Source: Anaerofustis stercorihominis DSM 17244 (lineage in GTDB: Bacteria > Bacillota > Clostridia > Eubacteriales > Anaerofustaceae). Taken from it: a stretch of 64,000 nt of DNA. The position numbers and the translations under genes are program-made. Below, one piece after another: positions 2,933 to 8,151 of this stretch. The notes beneath the pieces are model-generated. The model did no database searches, was not told the DNA's origin, and saw nothing but the letters and a program-made list of their open reading frames with translations. Positions within the stretch are counted from its first letter, which is position 1, and each line of letters starts with the position of its first letter. Location: assembly GCF_000154825.1 (NCBI RefSeq), contig NZ_DS560015.1, positions 583,052 through 647,051 on the forward strand, read 5' to 3'.

Positions 2933-3487
2933 TTAAACATCTTCGCTCATTATTTTTCTTTCGTGCCTTCTGCTCTTTTCAAAATATTTCTTTCTCTTCA
3001 TGGTAAAATCCACCGTAACACCGAAAGCCTCGCTGGCGTCATACGGATTGAAACCGCCGTACATCAGAAAAGAATTATCGTAGAACTCTTCGAATAAATC
3101 ATCGGGCATCAGAAAATACAATGAAAATGCATCGGCTTGAGCTTCTTCCTTATTAAGAGGGATATCTTCGCTTTCAAGCTGATTTATGCTGTGACAGAAG
3201 AGATGTCCCGCCTCATGAGCCAAAGCCTCTCTCCTTTTCTTTGTCTCGTCAGCCAAAGTGGAGTTCTTATTTAAATATTCATTATCTTCCATTTTGGTAT
3301 TGCCGACGATCAGCAAATTTCCGATAACGCATGATTTATCGCAGTCATCGAAAAATTTCAGTTTATAATTCAAATCCTCAAATATTTCTTCAAACTTCTC
3401 AAAGGTCACGGGATATGTATCAACAAAATATTCACTTCTTACTTTTTCAGCCTTTTCGTACATGTTTTCGTATAAATATTTGGTCAT
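2933..3487 (-). CDS. ImmA/IrrE family metallopeptidase
   Basis: 184 residues with the zinc-peptidase motif HEAGH at 91-95 and a downstream acidic ligand region (EEAQADAF, about 114-121), the layout of ImmA/IrrE proteins. Family members cleave phage- or ICE-type XRE repressors and so control excision or stress genes. I start it at the ATG at 3487, which has TAGGAGAA 5 bases upstream; a longer TTG reading would begin inside the upstream terminator stem. No repressor gene lies next to it here; the nearest phage-like genes (fibre, portal) follow on the same strand. It may regulate those genes, but that is inference from position only. Confidence 0.8.
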   Translation of the reverse strand: MTKYLYENMYEKAEKVRSEYFVDTYPVTFEKFEEIFEDLNYKLKFFDDCDKSCVIGNLLIVGNTKMEDNEYLNKNSTLADETKKRREALAHEAGHLFCHSINQLESEDIPLNKEEAQADAFSLYFLMPDDLFEEFYDNSFLMYGGFNPYDASEAFGVTVDFTMKRKKYFEKSRRHERKIMSEDV

Positions 3488-3500
3488 ATGTTCTCCTACT

Positions 3501-3527
3501 AAAAAAAGCCTCAAAAGAGGCTTTTTT
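3501..3527 (-). terminator. intrinsic terminator (bidirectional)
   Basis: Near-perfect hairpin AAAAAAGCCTC / GAGGCTTTTTT with a 4-nt loop, after the DUF1858 gene. The immA-like ribosome site follows within about 8 bases. A weak promoter (TTGGTA, 17, TATTTA; 3532-3560) would start transcription at the hairpin. Confidence 0.85.
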
Positions 3528-4717: not shown

Positions 4718-5182
4718 ATGAAGCCGAATATTAAAAAATATCTCCCTTTTATTATTATAGGGATAGTTTTAGTTTTATTCTTACTTATTACTCCCGGATT
4801 TTCAAAAAAGATCATGCTCAATTCCGTAATGGAAAATCAAGTTTTGAATAAAGAAATCACAAAAGTCGAATATATAAGTTACGAAGATAAACCGTTCATG
4901 TCCGTAGTAAAAGAAAAAAGAGAGATAAACGGTAAAGACAGTACTGCCGCAAAGTTTATAAAAAACATGGGAAATTATAAGATCAAAGTATTATCGAACA
5001 AAGATTATACAAAGGAGATTTTCTATGTTCATTTTAAGGACGGCTCAAAACTGATATGCTATATAGATAAAGCCGAGTCCAAAATAGGAGTCGACAGCGG
5101 TAAAGTATGGATAAAAGATATAAAAGCGGATAATATCATTAAAGAAATGAAAGAAGTCCAGCTTGTTAAAGAAGTTAAGTAA
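4718..5182 (+). CDS. membrane-anchored hypothetical protein
   Basis: 154 residues, not recognised. One N-terminal hydrophobic segment (about residues 9-27, LPFIIIGIVLVLFLLI) after a basic start suggests a signal anchor with the soluble part outside. The soluble part is lysine-rich, with alternating beta strands (FYVHFKDGSKLICYI) and no cysteine pair or metal motif. The ribosome site is weak, so translation may be coupled to the PII-like gene 5 bases upstream. A GGGGC/GCCCC repeat hairpin starts 3 bases after the stop and probably ends the transcript. Confidence 0.6.
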   Translation: MKPNIKKYLPFIIIGIVLVLFLLITPGFSKKIMLNSVMENQVLNKEITKVEYISYEDKPFMSVVKEKREINGKDSTAAKFIKNMGNYKIKVLSNKDYTKEIFYVHFKDGSKLICYIDKAESKIGVDSGKVWIKDIKADNIIKEMKEVQLVKEVK

Positions 5183-5185
5183 TAT

Positions 5186-5350
5186 AAGGGGCGCTGCCCC
5201 TTACACCCCGGCACTTTTTAAAAGATTAAAAAGTACCAAAAAATCTCCGCTTAAGCCGCGGAGGCTTTAGCGACTGGATTTTCTCTGAAAATCTACCCGA
5301 TTTTCAGGAAACAGTCGCTGCCCCGACCCTTTAAAAACAAAGTTTTAAAT
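5186..5350 (+). repeat. modular palindromic intergenic element (copy 1)
   Basis: Starts with AAGGGGC-gct-GCCCCTT, then ACCCCG, a hairpin of the AGATTAAAAAGT type, CTCCGC/GCGGAG, and a long imperfect hairpin around ACTGGATTTTC. The same modules recur at about 25.9, 40.2, 46.4, 50.7, 51.4, 52.6, 56.0, 61.7 and 62.2 kb. Confidence 0.75.
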
Positions 5351-5811
5351 TTTATTAAAGTAAAACCTTCGATACATTGCTTGGAAAAATATAATAACTA
5401 TCAAGAATAAACTTTCATTTTAATAGAATAGCTGATAATCAGCCCCTTTATGTAAAAGGGGCATTTTTTATATAATAACTCTCTGCAATGCTCAGCAATA
5501 CTTAAAAAATAATTATACAATTTAAAATTCTTTTTAAATTGTAATTAAATCTTATGTCCGTCTAAAAAAGAGAAAAATAATTCCATTAGGTGATAAATTA
5601 GATTTTTGTTGAAGAGATCTTTAACTAACGATAAAAATAACAACCAAACATATTTTACCTATATATGTATGTTTTTCGGGAATACTGCACCCGAAAGCTC
5701 TAAAATCTATTACTTAGATGACAACTCTATAATTTCAATTTGTTCAGAAAAAATGAACAGGATATAAAAGATAAAATCCCTTATAGGTTTATTTCTTTAA
5801 AACAAAATATT
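5351..5811. other. gene-free AT-rich stretch
   Basis: Nothing firm is seen. A GGGGC-free hairpin near 5437-5470 (AGCCCCTTT / AAAGGGGC, then a T-run) looks like a rightward terminator, and a 53-codon TTG reading at 5606-5767 lacks a ribosome site. Confidence 0.5.
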
Positions 5812-5920
5812 TACCCCTATACAAAAATGTTAATACCTCTTATCAAAAATGATAGTACCCCCTTATAAAAAATGATAAAGATAATAATATAATAATAAAA
5901 ATATAAAATAATATATATCA
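5812..5920. repeat. iteron-like cluster I: three 22-bp repeats plus AT-rich tail
   Basis: Units begin at 5812, 5834 and 5856, exactly 22 bases apart, consensus TACCyCyTATnAAAAATGnT. An AT-only tail (ATAATAATATAATAATAAAA and onward) follows from 5881. Confidence 0.8.
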
Positions 5921-5966
5921 TAATAAAAGGATTTATATTTAAAACTCATTTATTAAAAAATAACAT

Positions 5967-6072
5967 ATACCCCCTATTAAAAATTGTGATACCCCCACTC
6001 AAAATTTGGAGTCCCCCCATCAAAAATTGTGGAGATAATAATATAAGATTAATAATATAAAATAATATATCT
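5967..6072. repeat. iteron-like cluster II: three 22-bp repeats plus AT-rich tail
   Basis: Units begin at 5967, 5989 and 6011, again exactly 22 apart (TACCCCC, TACCCCC, TCCCCCC), each followed by AAAAtTTG. The tail at 6034-6072 matches those of clusters I and III. Confidence 0.8.
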
Positions 6073-6255
6073 ATGAAGAACAGCGTAGCATGAAAATACC
6101 TCATACTCATTGAACTGCCCGTTAAAAATAGTTAAGTACCAAAAAAAAATATTTAAAGATAATATTATAAAGAAATAAATGAATTGAATATATTTAAAAG
6201 AAGCATTTGATATAAAATCAAAAACATATTTATAGAATAAACAATGATACTTTTG

Positions 6256-6345
6256 TACCTATGGAAAAAAATTACTATACCCCTAGTAAAAAATTACCAG
6301 GATAATAATATAATAATAAAAATATAAAATAATATATCTATAAAG
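6256..6345. repeat. iteron-like cluster III: two 22-bp repeats plus AT-rich tail
   Basis: Units at 6256 and 6278 (TACCTATGG, TACCCCTAG), then a tail at 6302-6345 nearly identical to that of cluster I. A further degenerate unit may lie near 6136. Confidence 0.75.
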
Positions 6346-6755
6346 AAAGTCATAGACTTAAAATGCTTATCTTAAATATAAAAGGATATTTTAATATATT
6401 TTCAGTCGATTTCTTAAAAATCAATTTATTTACTTTTTTGATTTTCATACCTAAATAATAAGCTTAATAATAAGCATACGATTTATTCTTTAAGCAATAA
6501 TTTTTGTCAAATTTTAATAAAATAAACTTTTTTTAAAAAAAACGATAAATTTATTATCAAAATTTAATATTATTATAATCCTGATATAATAATTTATATT
6601 TAGTATATGTTAAATACCGTCAGTAAAATATCCTTAAAACAGTGAGTATTATCACTTATAAGACAGATTTTGCTTTTCTTTTGACTCAAAATTGACTTGC
6701 TTATTTAAAATATCCTTTTTTTTACAAATATATGTAAACAAAAGCCTTTTAAATC
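6346..6755. other. gene-free AT-rich stretch upstream of tig
   Basis: Long A and T runs; no reading frame with a ribosome site and no clear repeat is seen before the tig promoter. Confidence 0.5.
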
Positions 6756-6783
6756 TTGAATTTCTGATTAATTATGATATAAT
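6756..6783 (+). promoter_or_regulatory. putative sigma-A promoter of tig-clpP-clpX
   Basis: TTGAAT, 16-bp spacer, TATAAT, 42 bases upstream of the tig ATG. No CtsR-type heptamer repeat or CIRCE element is seen around it. Confidence 0.65.
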
Positions 6784-6825
6784 ACTATTTTGAGTTAGAA
6801 TGGGACTTAGGAGGTAAAAATATAA

Positions 6826-8151
6826 ATGAGTTCAATATTAGATAAGAAAGAAAACAACGTGGCAACAATCACAATAACGGTTACCGCAGAAGATTTTAGC
6901 AAGGCCCTTGATGCTGCATACAAAAAAAACAGAGGTAAGTTCAACATCGATGGTTTCAGAAAAGGAAAAGCCCCAAGAAGAATTATTGAAAACAGATACG
7001 GCGAAGGCGTATTCTTTGAAGATGCATTAGACGAAGCATTCCCTTCAGAATACGAAAAAGCCATTGAAGAACATAATTTAAAACCTGTAAACATGCCTGC
7101 AATGACAAAATTAGACAGCATAAGTAAAGAAGAAGGTGCTACATTTACTATTGAAGTTGAATTGGAACCTGAATTCGAACTTGGCGAATACAAAGGTATA
7201 GAAATCTACTCTACAGAGTATGAAGCTACAGACAAAGACGTAGAAGACGAACTTGAAAGAGTAAGAGAACAAAACGCAAGACTTATAAGCGTTGAAGATA
7301 CCGAAGCTAAAGACGGCGATACTGTTATCATCGACTTTGACGGTTATGTCGGAGATGAACCTTTCGAAGGCGGAAAAGGCGAAAACTATCCGTTGGTACT
7401 AGGAAGCAATTCGTTCATCCCGGGATTTGAAGATCAGCTTGTAGGTAAAAAAGCGGGAGAAGAAACAGATGTCAACGTTACTTTCCCCGAAGAATACCAT
7501 GCTGCCGAACTTGCGGGAAAAGACAGCGTATTCAAAGTAAAAATTCATGAAGTAAAAGCTAAAGAACTTCCTGAACTTGATGATGATTTCGCAGCTGACA
7601 TAAGCGAATTCGATACTTTGGACGAATACAAAGAAAGCCTAAAGAAAACTATCAAAGAACAAAGAGAAAACAATCTTAAAGGCGCTGCTATCAACACTAT
7701 TATCGAAGAAGTATGCAAGAATACCGAAATCGACATACCTAAATGTATGATAGACAGAAAGACTGAAGACGTTAAGGCTCAATTCGAACAGCAAATAATG
7801 CAAAGCGGAATCGACCCTAAAACTTACTATGAAATAATGAAACAGCAAAACGACGGCAAAAACGAAGCTGATTTCGATGCACTGTTCGTTGAACAAGCAG
7901 AACATGATGTAAAACAAGACTTGGTATTAAATAAATTAATGGAAGTTGAAAGCTTTGATGTAAGTGACGAAGAAAAAGAAGCGGAATATGAAAACTTCGC
8001 AAAAGCTTACAACCAAAAGGTTGAAGACTTCAAGAAAGTCCTTGACGAAGCTACAGAAAATTACATCGAAAACTTCATCAAACAAAGAAAACTTTTCGAT
8101 TTCCTAATTGAAAATGCTAAGGTTAAAGAAGAAGAAAAAGAAGAAAAATAA
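6826..8151 (+). CDS. tig: trigger factor (ribosome-bound chaperone/PPIase)
   Basis: 441 residues, the normal family length. Trigger factor binds the ribosome exit tunnel and shields nascent chains. The ribosome-docking signature GFRKGKAP lies at residues 43-50. The FKBP-like prolyl isomerase domain follows at about 150-245 ([15 protein letters not shown], then [12 protein letters not shown]). The long helical C-terminal arms end in a Lys/Glu-rich tail. The ATG has GGAGGTAAAAATATAA in front. It is first in the operon tig-clpP-clpX, which links folding of new proteins with Clp proteolysis; clpP starts 23 bases after the stop. Confidence 0.97.

Follow-up and report, generated by a model that had tools for sequence, protein, structure and literature searches.

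Iteron clusters resembling phage initiator origins upstream of tig in Anaerofustis stercorihominis: a candidate decoy for phage replication

The intergenic region upstream of tig in Anaerofustis stercorihominis DSM 17244 carries three clusters in tandem that appear to be non-coding copies of the origin segment found in HTH_36-type phage replication initiator genes. We analyzed this region within a stretch of 64,000 nucleotides of the chromosome (hereafter called the window; contig NZ_DS560015.1, positions 583,052 to 647,051), and all coordinates refer to this stretch unless another record is named. The function that we predict for the copies, at a little under an even chance, is that of a decoy or ectopic origin that would bind the initiator of infecting phages and in this way be a natural form of the PER effect known from lactococcal phages.

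Architecture of the array

The intergenic region at 5183-6825, flanked by a small plus-strand gene and tig, carries three clusters of direct repeats with eight units, all read on the plus strand. Clusters 1 (5812..5878; 22-23-bp iterons at 5812, 5834, and 5856) and 2 (5968..6033; iterons at 5968, 5990, and 6012) have three units each, while cluster 3 (6256..6299) has two, at 6256 and 6278, of which the former (TACCTATGG...) is degenerate and a poor fit to the consensus. Each unit is composed of the box TACCCC, an arm of 4-6 variable bases, the box AAAAAT, and a second arm of about 5 variable bases, and the units recur with a period of about 22 bp. A cluster model returns these clusters with E-values of 2.1e-20, 5.5e-25, and 5.1e-14, respectively, but was itself built from them. 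Every cluster is followed by about 40 bp that open with GATAATAAT and are otherwise nearly all A/T (plus strand, 5880..5919, 6034..6074, and 6301..6340); the A/T runs after GAT measure about 36-38 bp, and there is one G within that of cluster 2. The tail of cluster 1 is the counterpart of a linker in the initiators (Rep) of phages and a presumed unwinding element, and the segment 6299-6329 at the tail of cluster 3 is identical in a congener recorded as Anaerofustis stercorihominis DSM 28733 (NZ_JANJZK010000016.1).

A preliminary description of this DNA, made from its letters alone, had spoken of exact 22-bp repeats that are each time followed by the same 40-bp tail of only A and T. Its eight units in three clusters and an A/T-rich tail for each of them hold up well, but the similarity is 89% for neighboring units as paired by repeat finding and 65-74% for whole clusters, the tails are similar rather than identical, and the boxes of cluster 2 begin one base later than had been claimed. 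Using a fixed box rule (at most 1 mismatch per 6-base box, with pairs defined by a spacing of 21-24 bp), the region 5000-7000 was found to contain 7 units and 4 correctly spaced pairs, compared to a mean of 0.98 units (maximum 6) and at most 1 pair in 500 first-order Markov sequences of the same region. A possible fourth, decayed cluster at 6117..6172 (plus strand) is weak and not significant (cluster model 4.2 bits, E 3.4), and a tail-like copy at 6145-6180 belongs to repeat family D2.

The arms of the units are complementary, with 45 pairs compared to a shuffle mean of 31.5 in a fixed register (P 4e-4) and 43 compared to 35.1 in the best register (P 0.02). An RNA hairpin was considered and rejected as the reading of this complementarity, since the phage context described below accounts for such arms as dyad iterons, and the 4 matches that Rfam listed for 5000-7000 were all far under their gathering scores. 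Two further elements of the region are separate from the iterons. A non-coding block at 6506..6620, to which no strand is assigned, sits between the array and the tig promoter and is 88% identical in DSM 28733. The segment 5180-5350 is an interspersed non-coding repeat present at no fewer than 22 places in this genome and at least 10 places in DSM 28733 (E <=1e-8), and at none in a third congener at the same threshold (40 candidates scored per genome).

Relatives in phages and in the host genome

By sequence, the closest relatives of the array that we found appear to be arrays within HTH_36-type phage replication initiator genes. The two-unit pattern occurs in 49 stretches of viral contigs, of which 38 lie inside frames that measure at least 130 aa from stop to stop, with the array mostly near the middle of the frame, and 11 do not. 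A later match, L214, is a 248-aa frame that contains the array followed by AAAGATAATAATATAA, with the same junction as in cluster 1. Among the resulting 39 frames, 35 matched PHROG 270 ("replication initiation protein") and 32 matched Pfam HTH_36, though these frames are not independent of each other because 17 of the 39 fall into one group with 81-100% identity to its first member. Several viral arrays comprise three units with perfect dyad arms like CCGAC-AAAAAT-GTCGG, and within an array the arms agree between units in L092, L096, and L121 but not in the L070 group. Since the arms differ between phages, they probably set the specificity of the initiator. At the protein level, DKNV is an example of the peptides that phage units can encode, and an Asn/Lys-rich linker is encoded by the A/T tail. 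The cluster model also matched phage arrays outside its build (E 1.7e-11 for L214, 4.6e-11 for L064/L108, and 1.5e-9 for L111), all of which had been fetched with patterns derived from the array.

In another record (G067/L075), an array with 81% identity to cluster 2 over about 130 bp lies next to a disrupted HTH_36 reading frame. Relatives of the L075 initiator were found in 0 of 67 genomes (in a search without positive control) and, among viral contigs, in the same record only. Phage records yielded no match by DNA similarity, and we did not find a phage of this host whose arms match. Two frames from a genome of the same family (L182 and L190 in G009) are HTH_36 frames with other dyad repeats (GTGTAAAAACTACAC; GTCAAAAATTTTGAC) at the same place and with A/T-rich linkers, too, i.e., they have the same design with different arms.

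The phage HTH_36 initiator frames that contain such arrays are the kind of Rep gene with the same repeats for which the preliminary description had proposed to search. Its iteron-type origin is accordingly right in kind, as one of phage-initiator type, but does not resemble a plasmid or chromosomal origin. A plasmid origin would have a linked rep gene, which is missing here, and 72,556 plasmid records gave 3 weak matches, none of them an annotated plasmid rep; the sole array-like one falls within an HTH gene in a Monoglobus record, as part of a module read as phage-like. A chromosomal origin (oriC) is unlikely, too, with no GC-skew flip and no DnaA box in 5183-6825 at up to 1 mismatch. Across 391 Clostridia genomes, the motif ACCCC-n-GACAAAAATGTC was found in one, at a single site without array, and many of the 63 stretches obtained in a further scan look like chance coding matches or other types of arrays. 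Some Bacteroidales contigs (L132, L134, L160, L163, and L176) have TTACCCC...GGGAAAAATTTG sites outside long frames, in two genomes on more than one contig.

Within the host genome, when up to 3 mismatches were allowed, a two-unit pattern of 20 bases was found at this locus (5 pairs) and at one other place, read as coding. Because this search found the array at a single locus, it does not look like part of a generic intergenic family scattered over the genome, which is what the preliminary description had named as evidence against its reading. No frame of at least 80 aa overlaps 5812-6345, so the array is not inside an open initiator gene. Searching the whole genome for HTH_36 revealed no phage-like initiator and only three matches, which are read as regulators of the GntR, MarR, and SorC type; the earlier remark that no initiator gene is nearby can thus be extended to the whole genome for HTH_36 initiators, the one family searched. 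The neighboring frames did not match rep families, and there is no linked Rep gene as an iteron plasmid would have.

Traces of such a gene were sought with a Rep profile made from 35 phage initiator frames (257 positions; L214 and L075 included). At its positions 111-169, i.e., the iterons and the linker, this profile matched the translated intergenic region of DSM 28733 with E 1.8e-8 and the window with E 0.05, which is not significant, and these linker matches could owe something to A/T-rich composition. Matches that extend outside 111-169 (from 78 or 100) had domain E-values of 10 and 5.7, and the profile members L214 and L075 match at 10-239 and from position 4 on, respectively. Among the best 80 rows of a tblastn search with 15 phage initiators against 5000-6900, there were short iteron matches and no HTH match. 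These results would be explained most simply if the clusters derive from the part of initiator genes that contains the origin, the rest of which genes is gone or unrecognizable.

Divergence between congeners and competing explanations

In DSM 28733, the region upstream of tig has the same three clusters with their order unchanged, and the array would for this reason most simply be older than the split of the two species. The exact two-unit pattern was detected in 2 of 67 genomes of the same genus and order, namely that of the window and that of DSM 28733. A looser DNA search gave matches in 13 of 61 genomes, much of which is apparently A/T-rich chance; those inspected were DSM 28733 and two places in the third congener. 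The latter is without the array upstream of tig and has a gene there that is read as LysR-type.

Over aligned columns, clusters 1 to 3 are 0.75, 0.89, and 0.82 identical between the window and DSM 28733 (with 65 of 90 columns aligned for cluster 3), while the larger spacers are 0.54-0.58, the 39-bp spacer 0.67, and the segment 6621-6705 0.62 identical. Spacer lengths differ, with about 180 bp between clusters 2 and 3 in the window versus about 25-30 bp in DSM 28733. The tig genes are 95.2% identical, and the divergence at fourfold sites is 0.18-0.30 for the first four genes and 0.42-0.51 for the next two. Purifying selection on the clusters was dropped as an explanation because elsewhere on this contig four intergenic stretches show identities of 0.82-0.96 between the two species, which leaves the clusters no better conserved than background. 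Between the two species, 84 of 96 positions in the TACCCC and AAAAAT boxes are unchanged versus 44 of 79 in the arms (P 2.7e-6), in an alignment of units that was made by hand on the boxes and therefore favors them. When the background is set at 0.82, the smallest value among the four intergenic stretches compared outside the tig upstream region, the boxes do not rise above it (P 0.10), whereas the arms, in this same hand alignment, fall below it (P 6e-8). In our reading, the clusters seem to diverge at about the background rate and the spacers to have been replaced or scrambled, and it is the arms but not the boxes that would have changed faster.

If the initiator of an infecting phage recognizes these iterons, it would bind the chromosomal clusters, open their A/T tails, and recruit helicase and replisome to them, and this titration of Rep together with the wasted initiation would delay or abort phage replication. 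Such a decoy is supported by the resemblance to phage origins, the absence of recognizable Rep-coding parts, and a position and order that are common to two species, while the binding of Rep, the opening of the tails, and any effect on a phage are things that we only infer. Judged by sequence resemblance, the locus gives the host a phage origin in non-coding form, as in PER. In the accessible text of a study on lambda, ectopic origins on a plasmid of 20-40 copies arrest the phage, origin variants with a damaged A/T arm that still bind O also work, and the authors consider that O binding alone may suffice (PMC4488673). Similarly, the origins of TP901-1 and Tuc2009, which are located inside the initiator gene, are described as conferring PER in trans (PMC8965321).

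Several observations speak against a decoy. The dose is low, with one locus of three clusters per genome compared to the 20-40-copy plasmid used for lambda and a PER of phi Sfi21 that is described as copy-number dependent (PMC6356513). Conservation of the clusters between species does not seem to go beyond background. Because the arms vary between units within each chromosomal cluster, Rep may bind these sites poorly. Finally, phage portal and tail-fibre-like genes are found just left of the array, as one would predict for a relic. The more far-reaching idea that the bacterium captured phage origins and retains them on its chromosome as an antiviral decoy without genes, with arms that diversify faster than the DNA around them because they track changing phages, we consider rather unlikely.

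Ranking close behind the decoy, and fitting nearly equally well, is a view akin to the relic of an integrated replicon in the preliminary description, namely that the clusters are what is left of one or more prophage initiator genes, with coding parts decayed or deleted, the origin duplicated via recombination between repeats, and no present function; we hold this to be quite possible though short of probable. It agrees with a cluster identity between species that is not above the contig background, with arms that are partly broken, with the possible decayed fourth cluster (weak as it is), and with the similar array beside a broken HTH_36 frame in L075. It would also account for a phage portal (PF16510; L203:11480-13426), a tail-fibre-like frame (1387-2826), and a phage-type (IrrE-type) metalloprotease (2933-3514) about 2.3-6.4 kb to the left of the array, all on the minus strand, but a bactofilin gene and two small genes separate these from the array. 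Furthermore, a relic does not readily explain why both species keep the origin part in three clusters with no HTH or C-terminal coding recognized around it, why the order of clusters was kept while spacers were replaced or scrambled, or why boxes change less than arms. The minus-strand phage-like genes themselves adjoin topA- and dprA-like genes and could be a prophage remnant or a minimal element.

We regard it as improbable that the repeats are an operator array, i.e., that a chromosomal regulator (perhaps a domesticated initiator) binds them and controls tig or an unseen transcript. The spacing by whole helical turns would suit cooperative binding, and such an array can be an operator because cyanobacterial look-alikes, 22-bp TACCCC arrays, precede frames read as nifB or other nif genes. 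However, tig has a promoter-like sequence of its own at 6756-6783, a similar one is kept in the third congener that is without the array, the HTH_36 matches of the host are read as GntR, MarR, and SorC types, and neither the A/T tails nor the residual match to the Rep linker would be expected of an operator. As for the cyanobacterial arrays, non-coding repeats of the form TACCCC...AAAAATACTAG or similar with the 22-bp period are located upstream of frames read as NifB in L117, L142, L145, L154, L165, and L174 and are present at other cyanobacterial loci as well; we assume that they probably are CnfR-type operators. Conserved elements upstream of nifB are thought to bind CnfR, according to the accessible text of one source (PMC8510180).

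An origin acting in cis for a phage satellite or a cryptic element, which would replicate with the initiator of a helper phage in trans, would explain an origin without initiator and the nearby open portal, tail-fibre-like, and metalloprotease frames, but is very improbable given the ordinary genes in between and the absence of the conserved non-coding block, searched by the exact pattern of its core near 6550, from viral contigs (0 matches).

Comparison with known systems

Phage origins and PER are already known, and the principle of PER is an old one. To our knowledge, anti-phage defence has been catalogued almost wholly as protein systems, and we are not aware of a published case in which a chromosome naturally carries a gene-less set of phage origins that is common to two species. 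Among the matches listed in a search of open-access papers, none described natural chromosomal origin decoys, and none of those listed for Anaerofustis and phage looked relevant. If chromosomes do keep non-coding origin decoys, a class of defence would escape surveys that rely on protein families. The locus is a small and clean test case for this idea, with its three clusters and the phage initiators L214, L064, and L111, and the TACCCC/AAAAAT array provides a handle on origins embedded in initiator genes.

The iterons of lambda are dyads. As in a phage origin, the array at tig combines direct repeats at whole helical turns that match phage iterons with an adjacent A/T segment. In lambda, the O gene contains four repeats of 19 bp and an A/T stretch of 40 bp (PMC4488673), and the replisome organizers ORF13 of TP901-1 and Rep2009 of Tuc2009 have direct repeats within their genes (PMC8965321), as far as the accessible text of these sources goes. 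The array at tig shares with them the direct repeats of about 20 bp and, with lambda, the A/T segment that follows the repeats (PMC4488673, PMC8965321), but differs in having no gene, three tandem origin segments, and arms that are unequal between units.

Like PER of lactococcal phages, including the 302-bp non-coding element of phi Sfi21, the locus would present an origin in a host where the phage is absent (PMC8965321, PMC6356513). Unlike PER, which these sources, in the text available, describe as coming from cloned or prophage copies and as copy-number dependent, it is chromosomal and common to two species. In the PLE satellite of Vibrio cholerae, an iteron origin has similarly been the arena of an arms race between phage and satellite (PMC8263062), but PLE is described as having its own RepA and as excising (PMC8263062, PMC7145576), and nothing comparable was seen in the window. 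The cyanobacterial CnfR-type nif operators are alike in their TACCCC arrays at about 22 bp and unlike the array at tig in having ACTAG-like bases between units, no A/T tail, and nif-like frames downstream, and we take this resemblance to be convergent.
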